33,776 bases of DNA from Desulfuromonas sp. GTDB taxonomy: Bacteria; Desulfobacterota; Desulfuromonadia; Desulfuromonadales; BM515. Numbering within the stretch: the first letter of the stretch is position 1; each line of letters starts with the position of its first letter. Below the pieces are notes generated by a model, which was given only the letters and a program-made list of their open reading frames with translations, ran no database searches and was not told the origin of the DNA. The translations under genes were made by a program, and so were the position numbers. The stretch covers positions 1-33,776 of the forward strand of contig PKUF01000033.1 of assembly GCA_002869635.1 (NCBI GenBank), in the 5' to 3' direction. Below, piece after piece: positions 6,798 to 18,701 of the stretch.

Positions 6798-6860
6798 GCA
6801 GCCCCCTTGACGAGGTAAAAGATGAAAAGGGGGACATTGTGCCACAGAGTAGCGACGGCG

Positions 6861-6907
6861 AAAAGAAAAACGGCCCCGGCAGCGTCTTAACGCCGCCGAG
6901 GCCGTTT
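6861..6907 (-). terminator. Intrinsic terminator after phoU
   Basis: On the minus strand an 18-bp stem (two G-U pairs, no gaps, loop TAAG) at 6868-6907 runs into TTTTTCTTTT. It closes the pst-phoU transcript and separates it from polA 64 bases further on. Confidence 0.9.
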
Positions 6908-6929
6908 CAGGGGTAAAACGAGGCAGGGA

Positions 6930-7583
6930 TCAAACGGTATGACGGACAATCTCCCCTTCGATCATGTAGAGAACATCCTCAGCGATGTTGGTGGCGAGAT
7001 CTGCGATCCGCTCCAGATGGCGTGAGACCGAAAGATACTGCACCAACGCATCGAGGCGCTCAGCATGCTGGCGGATCTGGGTCTTGACCAGTGTGTAGGT
7101 GAGCTTGTGCTGGGCATCGACCTCATCATCAAGAGCACAGACCTGCAGAGCGGTCTCACGATCAAGCCGCACCAGAGCATCAAGACTTTTCTCGAGCATC
7201 ACCTCGACCTTACGCCCCATGGAGGCGATATCGAACGGAGCAGGGATGCGACCAACCTCGGCAAGCCCGCGGGTCCGCTCTGCAACGTTGACCGCAAGAT
7301 CGGCAATCCGCTCTAGGTCGTTGTTGATCTTAAGAACCACGATGATGAAGCGCAAATCCGCGGCGACTGGCTGGTGCAACGCGAGGATTTTCAGACACTC
7401 TTCTTCAAGGTCGACCTCAAGGGCGTCAATCGTTTCATCCCCGGCCACCACCTCTTCAGCAAGGGCAATGTCCCCTTCGACCAGGGAACGAACCCCTTTT
7501 TGAACCGTCTCCTCGACTGTTGAGGCGAGAGAAAGAATTCTCTGTTTGAGCCCTTCAAGCTCATGTTGAAGATGTATTGTCAT
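6930..7583 (-). CDS. phoU: Phosphate-specific transport accessory regulator PhoU
   Basis: The 217-residue, all-helical protein shows the two related three-helix halves of PhoU. The twin signatures are NDLERIADLAVNVAE (first half) and RHLERIADLATNIAED (second half), whose acidic residues bind metal ions in the family. PhoU links the Pst transporter to the PhoR kinase and keeps the Pho response off when phosphate is plentiful. A strong AGGAGG lies four bases ahead of the ATG, and the gene begins eight bases after pstB. It is the last gene of the pst operon, just before a strong terminator. Confidence 0.96.
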   Translation of the reverse strand: MTIHLQHELEGLKQRILSLASTVEETVQKGVRSLVEGDIALAEEVVAGDETIDALEVDLEEECLKILALHQPVAADLRFIIVVLKINNDLERIADLAVNVAERTRGLAEVGRIPAPFDIASMGRKVEVMLEKSLDALVRLDRETALQVCALDDEVDAQHKLTYTLVKTQIRQHAERLDALVQYLSVSRHLERIADLATNIAEDVLYMIEGEIVRHTV

Positions 7584-7591
7584 AGTCCCTC

Positions 7592-8374
7592 CTAACCGAA
7601 CCGGCCGGTAATGTAATCTTCGGTCTGACGATGTTGCGGCTTCATAAAGAGTTTGCTGGTCGCTCCGAATTCGATCAACACCCCTTCATAGAGAAATGCG
7701 GTGTAATCAGAGACCCGCGCCGCCTGCTGCATGTTATGGGTAACGATGATGATCGTGTAGTCCTGTCGCAACTCGCCGATCAGCTCCTCGACCCGCGCCG
7801 TCGATTTGGGGTCGAGGGCGCTGCACGGCTCATCCATAAGGATCACTTCGGGATTCACCGCGATGGCCCGGGCGATACAGAGCCTTTGCTGCTGACCACC
7901 AGAAAGGCCGAGGGCCGATTGCTGCAAACGGTCCTTCACTTCATCCCAGAGGGCCGCCCCCTTAAGACTCTTCTCCACGGTCTCATCAAGGAGTGCCTTG
8001 TCTTTGACTCCGGCAATCCGCAGACCATAAATGACATTTTCATAGATTGATTTGGGAAACGGATTCGACTTCTGAAAGACCATCCCGACCTGCCGCCGCA
8101 GTTCGATGACATCGGTGCCGCGCGCATAGATGTTGGCACCATTGAGCAGCACCTCACCGTCGACCCGGATATTGTCGATCAGGTCGTTCATCCGGTTGAA
8201 ACAGCGCAGCAAGGTACTTTTGCCGCAGCCCGAAGGACCGATGAGCGCCGTCACCTGCTTGCGCGGAAAACGGAGGCTGACATCAAAGAGGGATTGAGAC
8301 TCCCCATAGTAAAAATCGAGGTTGGCGACCTCAAGAACCGGATCGACAATCGTCTGAGTTAAATCGGTAGACAT
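7592..8374 (-). CDS. pstB: Phosphate ABC transporter ATP-binding protein PstB
   Basis: The 260-residue ATPase powers high-affinity phosphate import from the inner face of the membrane. Walker A is GPSGCGKST (46-54) followed by the PstB-typical CFNRMNDL. The Q-loop is [10 protein letters not shown], the ABC signature LSGGQQQRL, and Walker [13 protein letters not shown]; the switch histidine is in [10 protein letters not shown]. Length matches the family (about 250-260). The gene follows pstA after 15 bases and precedes phoU by eight. The ribosome site (AGAGAG) is modest. Apart from a C-terminal tail ending TGRFG, nothing is unusual. Confidence 0.97.
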
Positions 8375-8389
8375 AAAGCGTATCTCTCT

Positions 8390-9991
8390 TTAGAAAACAC
8401 CGAAAGTGTAGCGTTTTTTCATCCGGTTGCGTAGCGCAATCGCAGTCCCACTCATGACCAGTACGATCAACACCAGCAACAGGGTGGTCACAAAAACCAT
8501 CGGCTTGGCCGCCTCAATGTTAGGAGACTGAAAACCGATGTCGAAAATATGAAAACCAAGATGCATGAATTTGCGATCAAGATGAACAAAGGGGAAGTTG
8601 CCGTCAATGGGGAGAACCGGTGCCAGCTTGACCACACCGGTAATCATCAACGGCGCCACCTCACCGGCAGCACGCGCCATGGCAAGAATCAGTCCGGTCA
8701 TGATCCCCGGTGAGGCCATAGGAAGAAGAACCTTGATCAGGGTCTGGAATTTGGTCGCCCCTAGAGCGTAGGAGCCTTCGCGCATCTCCCGGGGGATGGC
8801 GCTTAACGCCTCTTCGGTCGCCACGATGACCACCGGGACAGTAAGCAACGCCAGCGTCAAGCTCGCCCAGAGGATCCCTCCGGTACCGAAGGTCGGGTTA
8901 GGGAGCAGTTCAGGATAAAAGATCCGGTCAATCGCCCCCCCAACTCCATAGACGAAGAAACCGAGGCCGAAAATACCATAGACAATGGAAGGGATTCCGG
9001 CCAGATTGTTGACGGCAATCCGTACCAGACGAACCACCGTCCCCTCTTTGGCGTACTCTCGCAGATAGACGGCGGCGATCACCCCAAAGGGGAAAGAGAA
9101 GAGGCTCATCACGAAGATCAGCATCACCGTACCGAAAATCGCAGGGAAAAGGCCCCCTTCCGTATTCGATTCTCGCGGCTCAGCACTGAAGAGCTCCCAG
9201 AGCTTCCCCAGGTAAAAGAGCGTTTTTTCTCCAACCGTCATGATATTCGGCTGCCAGGTTCGAAGGACATCGGCGGCAATCAATGTTTTTTCACGGCCAT
9301 CGATGGTCGTCATGGTCACCGTCGCGCTCTGCAAGACCTGACTGAGACGATTCTGCTCTTCGAGAAGTTGATGAAAACGCTCTTTAAGTGCACCCTCTTT
9401 CTTTTCAACCGCAAGGCGCTGCGGATCATCAGCGGCCACGACCTCATAATCGTAACGCACCCGCTTTAAGCGTAACTCCTCCATGGCATAGCTGACATCG
9501 TTGAGATGTTCGGACTGTTTTATCAGAGCGGCACGTTCATCCTCCATCTTTGCCAGCAGTCGTTCCAGCAGGGAACGCTCCGTTCCTTGCAATTCTGGAG
9601 CAATCTCCCCCCCATCGACTTCCTTGAAGAATCCGTAAAAATTTCCGTATTCGCTCCGCTCCAACGCCACCGCATCAGCCGGAAGGCGGGTCAGGGCGAT
9701 ATCGTCAAGATTGACCCAACGAAAATCGAGACCGTTGAGCTGGCGATTGCCAATCTTATACTGCACGCGCTCCCCCGCCCCTTCGGGGCGAGCCTCGCTG
9801 CGCACCATCTCACCAAGTAGAACCGACCCGTCATTGAGACGGACTTCCACCAGATTGGACGGCCAGAATACACCGAGACCGTTGCTTACAATCACCACGA
9901 GTAGAACCAGAGCGATAAGCAGTGTCACACTTAAGGCGGTACCACTGAGCCAAACCATCGGTTCACCGATACGCCAGAATGCCCGTTTCAT
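8390..9991 (-). CDS. pstA: Phosphate ABC transporter permease PstA, enlarged form
   Basis: The protein has 533 residues against about 296 in E. coli. The C-terminal permease domain (from about 283) has the usual membrane segments, NNLAGIPSIVYGIFGLG, and the coupling loop EALSAIPREMREGSYALGAT...LLPMASPGI that contacts PstB. The extra N-terminal part has one membrane segment (about 11-36) and then some 240 residues predicted to lie in the periplasm, with a charged, coiled-coil-like stretch at about 130-215. This resembles the N-terminal DUF3333-type extension of some proteobacterial PstA proteins (from memory). The ATG at 9991 and a TTG at 9994 are both possible; AGGAG lies nine or six bases away respectively. 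It begins 21 bases after the pstC stop. Confidence 0.93.
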   Translation of the reverse strand: MKRAFWRIGEPMVWLSGTALSVTLLIALVLLVVIVSNGLGVFWPSNLVEVRLNDGSVLLGEMVRSEARPEGAGERVQYKIGNRQLNGLDFRWVNLDDIALTRLPADAVALERSEYGNFYGFFKEVDGGEIAPELQGTERSLLERLLAKMEDERAALIKQSEHLNDVSYAMEELRLKRVRYDYEVVAADDPQRLAVEKKEGALKERFHQLLEEQNRLSQVLQSATVTMTTIDGREKTLIAADVLRTWQPNIMTVGEKTLFYLGKLWELFSAEPRESNTEGGLFPAIFGTVMLIFVMSLFSFPFGVIAAVYLREYAKEGTVVRLVRIAVNNLAGIPSIVYGIFGLGFFVYGVGGAIDRIFYPELLPNPTFGTGGILWASLTLALLTVPVVIVATEEALSAIPREMREGSYALGATKFQTLIKVLLPMASPGIMTGLILAMARAAGEVAPLMITGVVKLAPVLPIDGNFPFVHLDRKFMHLGFHIFDIGFQSPNIEAAKPMVFVTTLLLVLIVLVMSGTAIALRNRMKKRYTFGVF

Positions 9992-10012
9992 CAAGAACGA
10001 CTCCTCAAACGC

Positions 10013-12268
10013 TTAAAAACGTCCGTATTTGGCCCGCAGCCGCTGACGAATCAGTTCGGCGACGGTATTGACAATAAAGGTCATCACAAACAGCAGAACC
10101 GCCGAGAGGAAAAGAACCCGGTAGAGCGAACCATCCACCGGCGCCTCGGGAATCTCGACAGCAATATTGGCCGAAAGGGGTCGCATCCCGTTAAAGATGC
10201 TCAAATCCATAATCGGCGTATTCCCCGTGGCCATCAGGACAATCATCGTTTCACCAACAGCACGCCCAAATCCGATCATCGTTCCGGCAAAGATGCCGGG
10301 GCTTGCCGAAGGAAGCATCACCCGCCAGACCGTCTGCCAACGACTCGCCCCGAGGGCCAGCGAAGCCGCCTTCAAGCTCTGCGGTACATTGGAGAGAGCA
10401 TCTTCGGCAATGGTAAAGATGATCGGGATGACAGCAAAGCCCATGGCGAAGGCGATGATGATACAGTTTCGCGGGTCGTAACGGACCCCCATCTCGTTAA
10501 AAAGCCACTGTTTGAGGTTGCCGGCGAAAAAAACCTCTTCAATCAACGGACCACACCAGGCCGCTAAGGCCACAGCGCCGATCAGAATCGGGGCGACCGC
10601 GACGAATTCAAAACCACGTTCAATCCTCTGTAACGACTCATTGCGCCGCGCCGCCTGCCAGACCAGCAAGGCCATCACCAACGTTGTCGGGAGGAAGATG
10701 AGACTTAAGAAAAGACTGCCAAGGGAGCGTTCGATCAGCGGGGCGAGCCAGAGCGCTGCAAGAAAACCGATGATGACCGTCGGCACCGCCGCCATGATCT
10801 CGACCGTCGGCTTGATCACCCCACGCAGCCGCGGCCGGGCAAACTGGCTGGTATAGATGGCCCCGAAGATCGCCAGCGGAACCGCAAAGAACATGGCGTA
10901 GAAGGTCCCTTTAAGGGACCCGTAGATCAAAGGGACCAGGCTTAGTTTTGCCTCATAGTCATCCGTTGCCGCTGAGGACTGCCAGACGTAACCGGGGGCG
11001 TCGTACCCCTCATACCAGACTTTGCCAAAGAGTGTTTTGAGGCTGACTTCAGGATGTGGAATCATCAGCGACCAACTGAGCATTTTCCCCTGCGAAGAGA
11101 CCGTGACCAGCCCGTTTCCTCGGGTGGTCAGGGCCAAAGGAGCATTCTCCTGAAACGCCGGGAGCGTCAAAAGGTGACGTTCACTGGTCATGTTATCTAT
11201 ATGCACCGCCGCACGGCTGGCACTGATGACGTTCTTGTCACGCTGGGTCGGATAGAGGGCGAGAATCGGGGCGTCGTGTCGACTCAAATCGTGGATACGT
11301 CGCAAAACTCGAGTGCCATGTTCATTGCGAACCGGCATCCATGTGGTCACCAGGCCGGTCGCATCGCCGACCGCGAGAGAGACATCCCCGAAGATCATGG
11401 TCAGGGCGGTGATAGCCCGCTGATCGACAAACGCCTTGCGACTTTCCAGCAGGATCGGTTCTTCAATATCAGCAAGATCCCAGCGCATCAACTCGCCAAG
11501 AGAGCTGCCGATAAAGAGCTGCTGCCCGTCGTGGCTGAGAACCAGGCTGGCGACCCTACCAAGAATGGAGGAGAGGTCGATCTCATGCTCCTCTTCACTA
11601 AAGCTTGTTTCACCGAGAAAGTTTTCCTCTTCGAGGCGCTGCAGAAGCTCAACGTGCCCATCGGCAAAGAGGTCAACGCGTGTCGAGCGCCCGTCAGCAC
11701 TGATGCGGGCCCAGGAACGTTCGGGCACACCGCTTGCCGGAGGGGCAAAGGTGGCGAGGCGTTCGCGTTGGTGCAGAATACTGCGTTCGTTACCCTGTTC
11801 GGCGTCGAAGAAGGGGCGAAAGCGAACTCTTTCGACGCTGACGCTCCCATCTTCCCAGAGCAGGACATGACGCAATCGGCCATCACCCTCGACTCCACGC
11901 AGGCGATCGGGTCCACTCGGAGCATGGAGTTGCTCTTGATCTAGCAACGCGCCATCGCTGATTTTGTAAAACGGCAGCTCACCATTTTCACTTAAGGCGT
12001 AGGAGGTTTCAAGGTATTCATCCATCCCGACAGCCAGCAGATTACCAGAGAGCTGCGACTCGACCGCCACACTCGGTTGACGCTCAACCTGGGCCGAGAA
12101 AAAGAGCGGCAGAGCTACATTGACGATCAGGACAAGGATGAAAACAACGCAAAAAATGACCGCCAATCCACCAAGGGTAATCCCCCAGCGGGCGAACCGG
12201 TCCATACGTTTGGCGCGCGCTTGATAATTCGTATTCATGGAACCATCACGTTGGTGGTTTTCAGACAC
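10013..12268 (-). CDS. pstC: Phosphate ABC transporter permease PstC, enlarged form with beta-propeller-like insert
   Basis: At 751 residues this is more than twice the E. coli PstC (319). Residues from about 449 onward form the permease, with EIMAAVPTVIIGFLAALW and the PstB-coupling loop DALSNVPQSLKAASLALGAS...MLPSASPGI. Ahead of it come one membrane segment (about 28-55) and a periplasmic region of nearly 400 residues with WD40-like strands, such as QQLFIGSSLGELMRWDL and SLAVGDATGLVTTWMPV. Large PstC forms occur in other proteobacteria. The start is uncertain: the longest frame begins with GTG at 12268, whose GAGG ribosome site and first base sit in the 3' arm of a perfect hairpin (12268-12303). 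The ATG at 12238 has only a weak site (GATGG) but leaves the membrane segment intact. Confidence 0.93.
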   Translation of the reverse strand: MSENHQRDGSMNTNYQARAKRMDRFARWGITLGGLAVIFCVVFILVLIVNVALPLFFSAQVERQPSVAVESQLSGNLLAVGMDEYLETSYALSENGELPFYKISDGALLDQEQLHAPSGPDRLRGVEGDGRLRHVLLWEDGSVSVERVRFRPFFDAEQGNERSILHQRERLATFAPPASGVPERSWARISADGRSTRVDLFADGHVELLQRLEEENFLGETSFSEEEHEIDLSSILGRVASLVLSHDGQQLFIGSSLGELMRWDLADIEEPILLESRKAFVDQRAITALTMIFGDVSLAVGDATGLVTTWMPVRNEHGTRVLRRIHDLSRHDAPILALYPTQRDKNVISASRAAVHIDNMTSERHLLTLPAFQENAPLALTTRGNGLVTVSSQGKMLSWSLMIPHPEVSLKTLFGKVWYEGYDAPGYVWQSSAATDDYEAKLSLVPLIYGSLKGTFYAMFFAVPLAIFGAIYTSQFARPRLRGVIKPTVEIMAAVPTVIIGFLAALWLAPLIERSLGSLFLSLIFLPTTLVMALLVWQAARRNESLQRIERGFEFVAVAPILIGAVALAAWCGPLIEEVFFAGNLKQWLFNEMGVRYDPRNCIIIAFAMGFAVIPIIFTIAEDALSNVPQSLKAASLALGASRWQTVWRVMLPSASPGIFAGTMIGFGRAVGETMIVLMATGNTPIMDLSIFNGMRPLSANIAVEIPEAPVDGSLYRVLFLSAVLLFVMTFIVNTVAELIRQRLRAKYGRF

Positions 12269-12303
12269 GGTTGGGCCTCGTCCATTCGGACGAGGCCCAA
12301 CCG
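12268..12303 (-). promoter_or_regulatory. Perfect 16-bp hairpin between pstS and pstC
   Basis: The arms at 12268-12283 and 12288-12303 are exact reverse complements around a 4-base loop (GAAT on the minus strand). The minus-strand 3' arm ends in GGACGAGGCCCAACCG. It contains the GAGG ahead of the GTG at 12268 and the first base of that codon. The next bases (TGTCTGAAA) hold no T-run, so it is not a standard intrinsic terminator. Likely role: a 3'-end stabiliser for pstS mRNA, limiting pstC expression; masking of the pstC start is inference. Confidence 0.8.
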
Positions 12304-12324
12304 ACGCGATGCAGAAGAAACGCG

Positions 12325-13305
12325 TTAATCGAGGAGTTCACGCTGCTTGCTGGCAGCACCGGCGGGAAGAGGGAGGAAGCCGTCCTTGACCACCACTTCC
12401 TGCCCCTGCTTGGAGAGCATGTACTTAAGAAACTCTTTGGTCAGAGTTTCGAGAGGTTTGTTCGGTTCTTTGGCCACATAGACGTAGAGCATACGACCCA
12501 GGGGGTACTTACCACTGAGAACATTCTTGTAGTTCGCCGCGTAAGCCTTGCGCCCCTCTTTTTTGGCCAGAGCGAGAGCTTTGACACCCGAGGTCACGTA
12601 CCCCATCCCCGAGTAGCCGATACCGGCCCTGTCTTCGCTGACACCAAGAACCACAGAGGCGTTCCCCGGCTGCTCTTTCACAATATCTTTAAAATCACCT
12701 TTTTTAAGAGCGTTCTTTTTGAAGAAACCATAGGTTCCGGAGGCCGAATTACGCCCGTAAAGGCTGATCGGCAGCTTCGACCATTTGCCGCCCATGCCGA
12801 CCTCGCCCCAGAGAGAGACATCGTCGCCACCGCGCTTTTGGGTCTTGGAGAAGATCGAGTCGACCTCAGTCATGGTGAGCGATTCAAGAGGGTTGTCTTT
12901 GTTCACAAAAACCGCCAGCGCATCAAGGGAAACCCCGATGGCGGTCGGCTTAAAACCGTGCCGCGCCTCAAACGCCTCAAGCTCCTGCTTCTTCATGGCA
13001 CGGGACATGGGGCCGAGCTGACTCGTCCCTTCGGTCAGCGCCGGAGGAGCCGTGCTTGAGCCTTTGCCTTCAACCTGAACATTGACATTGGGATAGATCT
13101 TACGGAACCCTTCAACCCAAAAGGTCATCATATTATTTAGGGTGTCGGAGCCGATACTGTTGAGCGTCCCGGCAACCCCTTGGACCTTTTGATAATCAGG
13201 CAGGGCCTTATCAACCTCAACCGCGTTTGCCGTAGTCCCAACAGCTGCCAGCATCAGAACCGCTACCGTCGTGGTGTACCATTTTGCAAGACGACTCTTG
13301 TACAT
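12325..13305 (-). CDS. pstS: Periplasmic phosphate-binding protein PstS
   Basis: The 326-residue precursor has a signal peptide: charged MYKSRLAKWY, a hydrophobic core (TTTVAVLMLAAVG) and a likely cut after ANA at residue 28. No lipobox cysteine is present, so it should be soluble in the periplasm. The mature part has IGSDTLNNMMTFWVEGF, GKGSSTAPPAL with the phosphate-loop serines, GTSQLGPMSRAMK, and ASGTYGFFK, as in the PstS-like branch of the phosphate-binding family. The start at 13305 is chosen because GAGGAG lies seven bases ahead and the signal peptide then begins normally; the upstream ATG at 13341 would fall within the presumed -10 region. First gene of pstSCAB-phoU, under a Pho box. 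A hairpin follows the stop. Confidence 0.96.
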   Translation of the reverse strand: MYKSRLAKWYTTTVAVLMLAAVGTTANAVEVDKALPDYQKVQGVAGTLNSIGSDTLNNMMTFWVEGFRKIYPNVNVQVEGKGSSTAPPALTEGTSQLGPMSRAMKKQELEAFEARHGFKPTAIGVSLDALAVFVNKDNPLESLTMTEVDSIFSKTQKRGGDDVSLWGEVGMGGKWSKLPISLYGRNSASGTYGFFKKNALKKGDFKDIVKEQPGNASVVLGVSEDRAGIGYSGMGYVTSGVKALALAKKEGRKAYAANYKNVLSGKYPLGRMLYVYVAKEPNKPLETLTKEFLKYMLSKQGQEVVVKDGFLPLPAGAASKQRELLD

Positions 13306-13339
13306 TCGTTTTCTCCTCATTTCTGAATAAGTTTTCTCC

Positions 13340-13370
13340 ATTATCGCCAGAAATGTTAGGGGAATGTTAG
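13340..13370 (-). promoter_or_regulatory. Pho box and promoter of the pst operon
   Basis: On the minus strand two exact copies of CTAACAT (13364-13370 and 13353-13359) are separated by TCCC. This gives the 7+4 spacing (11-base period) of PhoB-binding Pho boxes; the E. coli form is CTGTCAT. GATAAT (13340-13345) follows seven bases later and can serve as the -10 element. The Pho box takes the place of a -35 box. Confidence 0.8.
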
Positions 13371-13425
13371 GGTCGCGCGATGAGTTGATTAGCTCTTTTT
13401 TTCGCTGGGCGCAGCGTCAATCGCT

Positions 13426-16059
<2,634 letters not shown>

Positions 16060-18667: not shown

Positions 18668-18701
18668 AAAAAAAAGGCAGAGCCAATGGCTCTGCCTTTT
18701 T
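18668..18701 (-). terminator. Intrinsic terminator of the ribosomal protein operon
   Basis: A 9-bp perfect stem (GGCAGAGCC with GGCTCTGCC, 3-base loop) lies 22 bases after the rplQ stop and is followed on the minus strand by eight T residues. Flanking A and T runs can extend the stem. It separates the alpha operon from phoB. Confidence 0.93.

Follow-up and report, generated by a model that had tools for sequence, protein, structure and literature searches.

The phosphate-binding protein PstS is present in excess over the channel of its transporter. ABC transporters typically need more of the binding protein than of the channel, and in the five E. coli ABC operons that PMC5927463 names as showing differential decay (maltose, polyamine, arginine, histidine and methionine) the stabilised gene is that of the binding protein. 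According to the same source, 26 of 34 stabilised 5' genes in E. coli end just past a stable hairpin without a U tract, while protective structures in this species lie mostly within coding regions (PMC5927463). A stem-loop of -60.2 kcal/mol was predicted between pstS and pstC of Streptomyces lividans, 3 to 83 nt past the stop codon, and Northern blots showed more of the pstS transcript than of the pstC/A/B transcript (PMC2605767). The authors of that work also described the pstS-pstC palindromes of E. coli and B. subtilis as able to stabilise pstS RNA, citing Aguena 2002 and Allenby 2004, and proposed for their own stem-loop a terminator as well, leaving both roles open (PMC2605767). The pstS-pstC hairpin as such is therefore already known from these three species, as reported there. 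Intercistronic stem-loops of the selective RNA processing and stabilisation (SRPS) type have been grouped by their poly(U) tail into stabilisers, stabilisers-and-terminators and terminators (PMC8219983). The word "pst" is absent from the main texts of PMC5927463 and PMC8219983.

We analysed a 33,776-nt stretch of contig PKUF01000033.1 from Desulfuromonas sp., called the window below. Open reading frames and Pfam domains showed a pst operon on its minus strand, made up of pstS (12325..13341 as the longest ORF; phosphate-binding protein, PF12849), pstC (10013..12238 from the conserved ATG 12238; permease of 741 aa, PF00528), pstA (8390..9994; permease), pstB (7592..8374; ATPase) and phoU (6930..7583). 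The closest named match of its PstS, with 73% identity, was in a MAG labelled Desulfuromonas sp. (locus L035). A 19-pair, terminator-like hairpin with a T-rich tail lies 3' of phoU on the same strand (6867..6908) and is the probable terminator of the operon.

Like the pst operons of E. coli, B. subtilis and S. lividans, this operon carries a strong hairpin at the same junction, 3' of the binding-protein gene, but the stem-loop of S. lividans is larger (PMC2605767). In the inverted-repeat listing of the window, two of the seven pairs listed are perfect and non-overlapping; the longer one, at 12268..12303, has a perfect stem of 16 bp and a loop of 4 nt. Its arms (12268-12283 and 12288-12303) are 16 nt each, 100% complementary and separated by 4 nt. 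On the minus strand, which is the pst direction, the hairpin reads CGGTTGGGCCTCGTCC GAAT GGACGAGGCCCAACCG, with the 5' arm at 12303-12288 and the 3' arm at 12283-12268; it begins 21 nt past the pstS stop codon and ends 29 nt ahead of ATG 12238. The fold of a 141-nt region gave a z of -6.2 on the plus strand and of -4.0 on the minus (coding) strand, and none of 200 dinucleotide shuffles was as good on either strand. The perfect 16-bp hairpin announced in an earlier note on this DNA is thus confirmed, while of the span that the note had given to it (12238-12303) only 12268-12303 belongs to the hairpin and 12238-12267 does not.

Copies of the arm were sought in the assembly, which is 74% complete. 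Exact matches to a 14-mer of the arm were its own two arms only, and when up to one mismatch was allowed two one-mismatch places were added, against four places for the reversed control pattern. No dispersed repeat family of the REP/BIME type was thus found for the arm in the 74%-complete assembly. The E. coli pstS-pstC hairpin, which we take to resemble a REP element, differs in this respect from the arm in the window, which is single-copy in the assembly.

We then compared the junction among relatives. At E up to 0.001, which lets in weak paralogues, 44 of the 58 genomes from the same order gave PstS matches, and at E up to 1e-60 so did 69 of the 146 from the same class. The flanks of 76 strong PstS matches, together with the window and L035, gave 78 loci, and the 76 with pstC within 400 nt were kept, window included; L084, where no pstC was found, and L121, with a gap of 991 nt, were left out. 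Also left out of the strong matches were a partial one (G056) and two fragments from G020, and the weak matches from the order (E 4e-28 or worse) were unused. The sample holds two loci from some genomes and includes close relatives, and its p-values ignore kinship.

The results of the fold scan showed a best 46-nt fold of -20 kcal/mol or lower at 70 of 76 pstS-pstC junctions, compared with 8 of 74 for pstC-pstA, 1 of 70 for pstA-pstB and 5 of 65 for pstB-phoU. The median fold z was -5.35 at pstS-pstC versus 0.02, 0.10 and 0.01, respectively, at the other three, with 20 shuffles each and with scan steps of 2 for real sequences and 4 for shuffles, which slightly favours the real sequences and was applied alike to the control junctions. 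Since the gaps at pstC-pstA, pstA-pstB and pstB-phoU are shorter, the comparison was also made on length-matched gaps (56-400 nt). A core stem score of at least 24 was then reached at 67 of 76 pstS-pstC junctions, at 3 of 24 pstC-pstA, 2 of 14 pstA-pstB and 1 of 23 pstB-phoU junctions, that is, at 6 of 61 when the junctions other than pstS-pstC are pooled; the window's own pstC-pstA junction, a control, has no strong hairpin. The core score exceeded that of all 50 base shuffles of the same spacer at 65 of 76 junctions, and the cut-off was reached in 108 of 3585 110-nt coding segments of pst genes. Because the core search allows loops of up to 11 nt and no more than two mismatches, hairpins like those of L075 and L089 escape it, and some of the nine junctions below the cut-off nevertheless hold long imperfect hairpins. 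Hairpin positions were taken from this search and not from folds extended into imperfect outer pairs.

Comparison of the hairpin across relatives, proposed earlier as a check, thus showed a strong hairpin kept at 67 of 76 junctions with varied sequence: the 67 core hairpins have 61 distinct 5' arms. The stem typically lies 20-50 nt past pstS and 25-50 nt ahead of pstC in the class. Structure and place are conserved at pstS-pstC and the letters are not, which is what stands out in the result. The pst operons with a hairpin after pstS now include that of one uncultured lineage and, by comparison, those at most of the loci studied from its class.

Enlarged pstS-pstC spacers were seen in L118 (268 nt), L120 (259 nt) and L055 (182 nt), stretches that are also numbered L020, L026 and L027. 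By eye, the usual hairpin in each is accompanied by another long inverted repeat, as though an insertion had taken place.

The feature is patchier beyond the class. Among 11 further loci of the same phylum, five reached the score within 220 nt of the pstS stop codon, with pstC next in four, and L137 and L142 have weaker hairpins with T-rich tails. In the Ignavibacteriales locus L036, PstC homology starts about 1 kb past pstS; the interval apparently holds a further reading frame, and the surroundings of pstS gave no strong hairpin. The pstS-pstC spacer of E. coli K-12 forms a hairpin with a z of -2.4, four of 200 shuffles being as good.

The hairpin is found at the same spot in most relatives, and for this reason an ordinary device for keeping PstS above the channel is probable and a lock on a start codon is not. 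We consider it likely, with some room for doubt, that the hairpin is an intercistronic stem-loop that shields the pstS mRNA of a pstSCAB-phoU operon from 3' decay. Transcription starting 5' of pstS would pass through the hairpin, the less protected pstCAB-phoU part would be cut off, and 3'-to-5' exonucleases would be halted by the stem that now ends the pstS message, by analogy with the precedents. The pstS mRNA would then outlast the rest and PstS would exceed PstC, PstA and PstB, while pstC would be translated separately, from ATG 12238. The sequences show the structure, its place, its conservation at most junctions of the class, its rarity elsewhere in the operon and the conserved ATG, and from there we infer the read-through, the mRNA protection and the protein ratio. 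None of the three promoter-like sites in 6800-13500 (3.1 expected by shuffling) falls within the junction. The earlier note had proposed that the hairpin sets the PstS:PstC ratio in two ways; a block of 3' decay, which the hairpin could exert, is supported by its position, structure, conservation and precedent, whereas a limiting of pstC initiation is not supported. Nothing observed here speaks for the switch opened by ribosomes or an RNA-binding factor that the note had also raised.

The hairpin resembles those of differential decay at malE-malF of E. coli in being stable, without U tract and placed between the genes of a binding protein and a permease, but the E. coli case has decay data whereas the hairpin in the window is known here from sequence alone (PMC5927463). 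It is intercistronic like the SRPS stem-loops, which set subunit ratios and were worked out experimentally in Clostridium, while the window hairpin is assigned by sequence only (PMC8219983). By its U tail it fits best in the stabiliser class of the SRPS scheme, and some relatives would fall into the mixed or the terminator class (PMC8219983).

The place of the pstC start bears on another reading, in which the stem covers the ribosome site of GTG 12268 and so keeps PstC synthesis low, possibly in a switchable way. The earlier note was right that the 3' arm includes GAGG and the first G of GTG 12268, and the Shine-Dalgarno zone of this codon is predicted to be fully paired (unpaired probability 0.00). 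ATG 12238, in frame and ten codons downstream, has indeed the weak ribosome site described there: its anti-SD pairing is -2.8 kcal/mol, compared with -5.9 for GTG 12268 and with a median of -4.0 and an upper quartile of -3.3 for the assigned pstC starts of the 76 loci. Only this weakness would speak for a different start.

With the PstC query taken from ATG 12238, 66 of 75 relatives (67 of 76 loci if the window is counted) had an ATG aligned exactly with the first residue of the query. The rule used to assign pstC starts favours ATG and closeness to the aligned position; of the 76 loci, 9 had an assigned start elsewhere than at that residue, and two (L088 and L098) had one that was not an ATG. 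Upstream of the assigned start, 37 of the 75 relatives had the frame closed within 10 codons and the other 38 had it open; an in-frame start codon 8-12 codons 5' of the assigned start was present in only 8. The distance from the end of the stem to the assigned start ranged from 15 to 186 nt (median 32) over the 67 core hairpins, with no overlap. The 29 nt from stem to ATG in the window are typical, and a stem overlapping a GTG start would be without parallel in the set of 67. On this comparison, the start in use would not be inside the stem, the conserved ATG 12238 being 29 nt 3' of it.

The simplest reading is that pstC starts at ATG 12238; GTG 12268, at the base of the stem, is most likely in frame by chance. 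GTG 12268 and the nine codons that follow it (12239..12268, minus strand) are probably untranslated leader, homology in the relatives beginning at the ATG. A likely mis-call of the pstC start is thereby corrected from GTG 12268 to ATG 12238. The claim that the hairpin hides the start of pstC was rejected on comparison because the homologous start is ATG 12238 and no core hairpin reaches an assigned start; a stem acting through GTG 12268 is, in our estimation, very improbable.

The sequence past the stem bears on the main rival to mRNA protection, leaky intrinsic termination, in which most transcripts end past pstS, a minority reach pstCAB-phoU, and the ratio is set by transcription and not by decay. 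The two could coexist. The window hairpin is followed by 3 T in 8 nt (TGTCTGAA) and lacks the U tract that, together with a GC-rich hairpin, makes an intrinsic terminator. A terminator scan of the window returned seven terminator-like sites (7.9 expected by shuffling), among them the hairpin 3' of phoU but not the pstS-pstC stem, in agreement with the earlier remark that there is no T-run and no terminator here. By position and stability alone, it is the stable hairpin 3' of a gene needed in excess, and ahead of a less expressed one, that a stabiliser calls for, and the absence of a U tract past the stem points the same way in the window, while the relatives are mixed.

Over the 67 core hairpins, T was enriched at +2 to +6 past the stem, with 2.27 per 5 nt versus 1.09 elsewhere in the spacers (Wilcoxon p 4e-8, ignoring kinship). 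At least 5 T of 8 were present in 8 of 67, but 41 of 67 had fewer than 4 T of 8. Some relatives (L041, L072, L081 and L083), with 6-7 T of 8, do have the hairpin and U tract of a terminator; L077 and L081, which are below the score cut-off, have 6 and 7 T of 8. A stabiliser would not require such enrichment, so that a terminator component is suggested in relatives, which would agree with the proposal of the S. lividans authors (PMC2605767). Since U tails are mixed among the relatives, the element would be terminator-like in some and a plain stem in others. Leaky termination as the explanation for the window is, on balance, unlikely, but it deserves far more weight than a masked start.

Protection of pstS mRNA can also be weighed against a processing site for RNase III or another endonuclease, or a source of a 3'-UTR-derived small RNA. 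RNase III could conceivably act on so long a perfect duplex, but stems are short in many relatives, with a 10th percentile of 10 bp. The arms are so varied that a trans-acting RNA is disfavoured, as it could hardly tolerate such change, and the window gave no match to Rfam RNA families at the gathering threshold. Processing or a small RNA is therefore highly unlikely as the role of the hairpin.

Beyond mRNA protection in the window, we put forward a broader reading only tentatively, and regard it as rather doubtful: throughout the class, the hairpin at pstS-pstC may be a structural element tied to no particular sequence, which shifts over time from pure stabiliser to leaky terminator and back. 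The strong stem would be under selection while letters and U tail turn over, and the PstS:PstC ratio would be held by interchangeable mechanisms across species. With their mostly different stems and varied tails, the 67 junctions offer a ready-made set in which stabiliser and terminator function could be told apart.

Several other features of the window were observed. Two adjacent 11-bp direct repeats, CCCTAACATTC CCCTAACATTT, followed by GATAAT, were seen by eye 5' of pstS (13351-13372, minus strand) and presumably resemble a Pho box with its -10. If this is true, the pst operon would have its own phosphate-controlled promoter. The first ATG of the pstS ORF (13341) is just 3' of these box-like repeats, and ATG 13305 carries, by eye, a GAGGAG ribosome site; pstS probably starts at ATG 13305 rather than at 13341.

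The Pfam permease domain of the 741-aa PstC begins only at residue 464 in the numbering of P0001, and the part N-terminal to it gave weak, below-cut-off matches to beta-propellers. Seven permease-domain matches were found in the genome when other junctions of a binding-protein gene with a permease gene were sought; two are pstC and pstA themselves, and by eye the neighbour translations of the remaining five showed no binding-protein gene directly 5' of the permease. A perfect inverted repeat, AAAAAGGCAGAGCCA/TGGCTCTGCCTTTTT, is located at 18671-18701 of the window and resembles a two-way terminator, and its core, GGCTCTGCC, is shared with the pstS-pstC stems of L035, L048 and L113.
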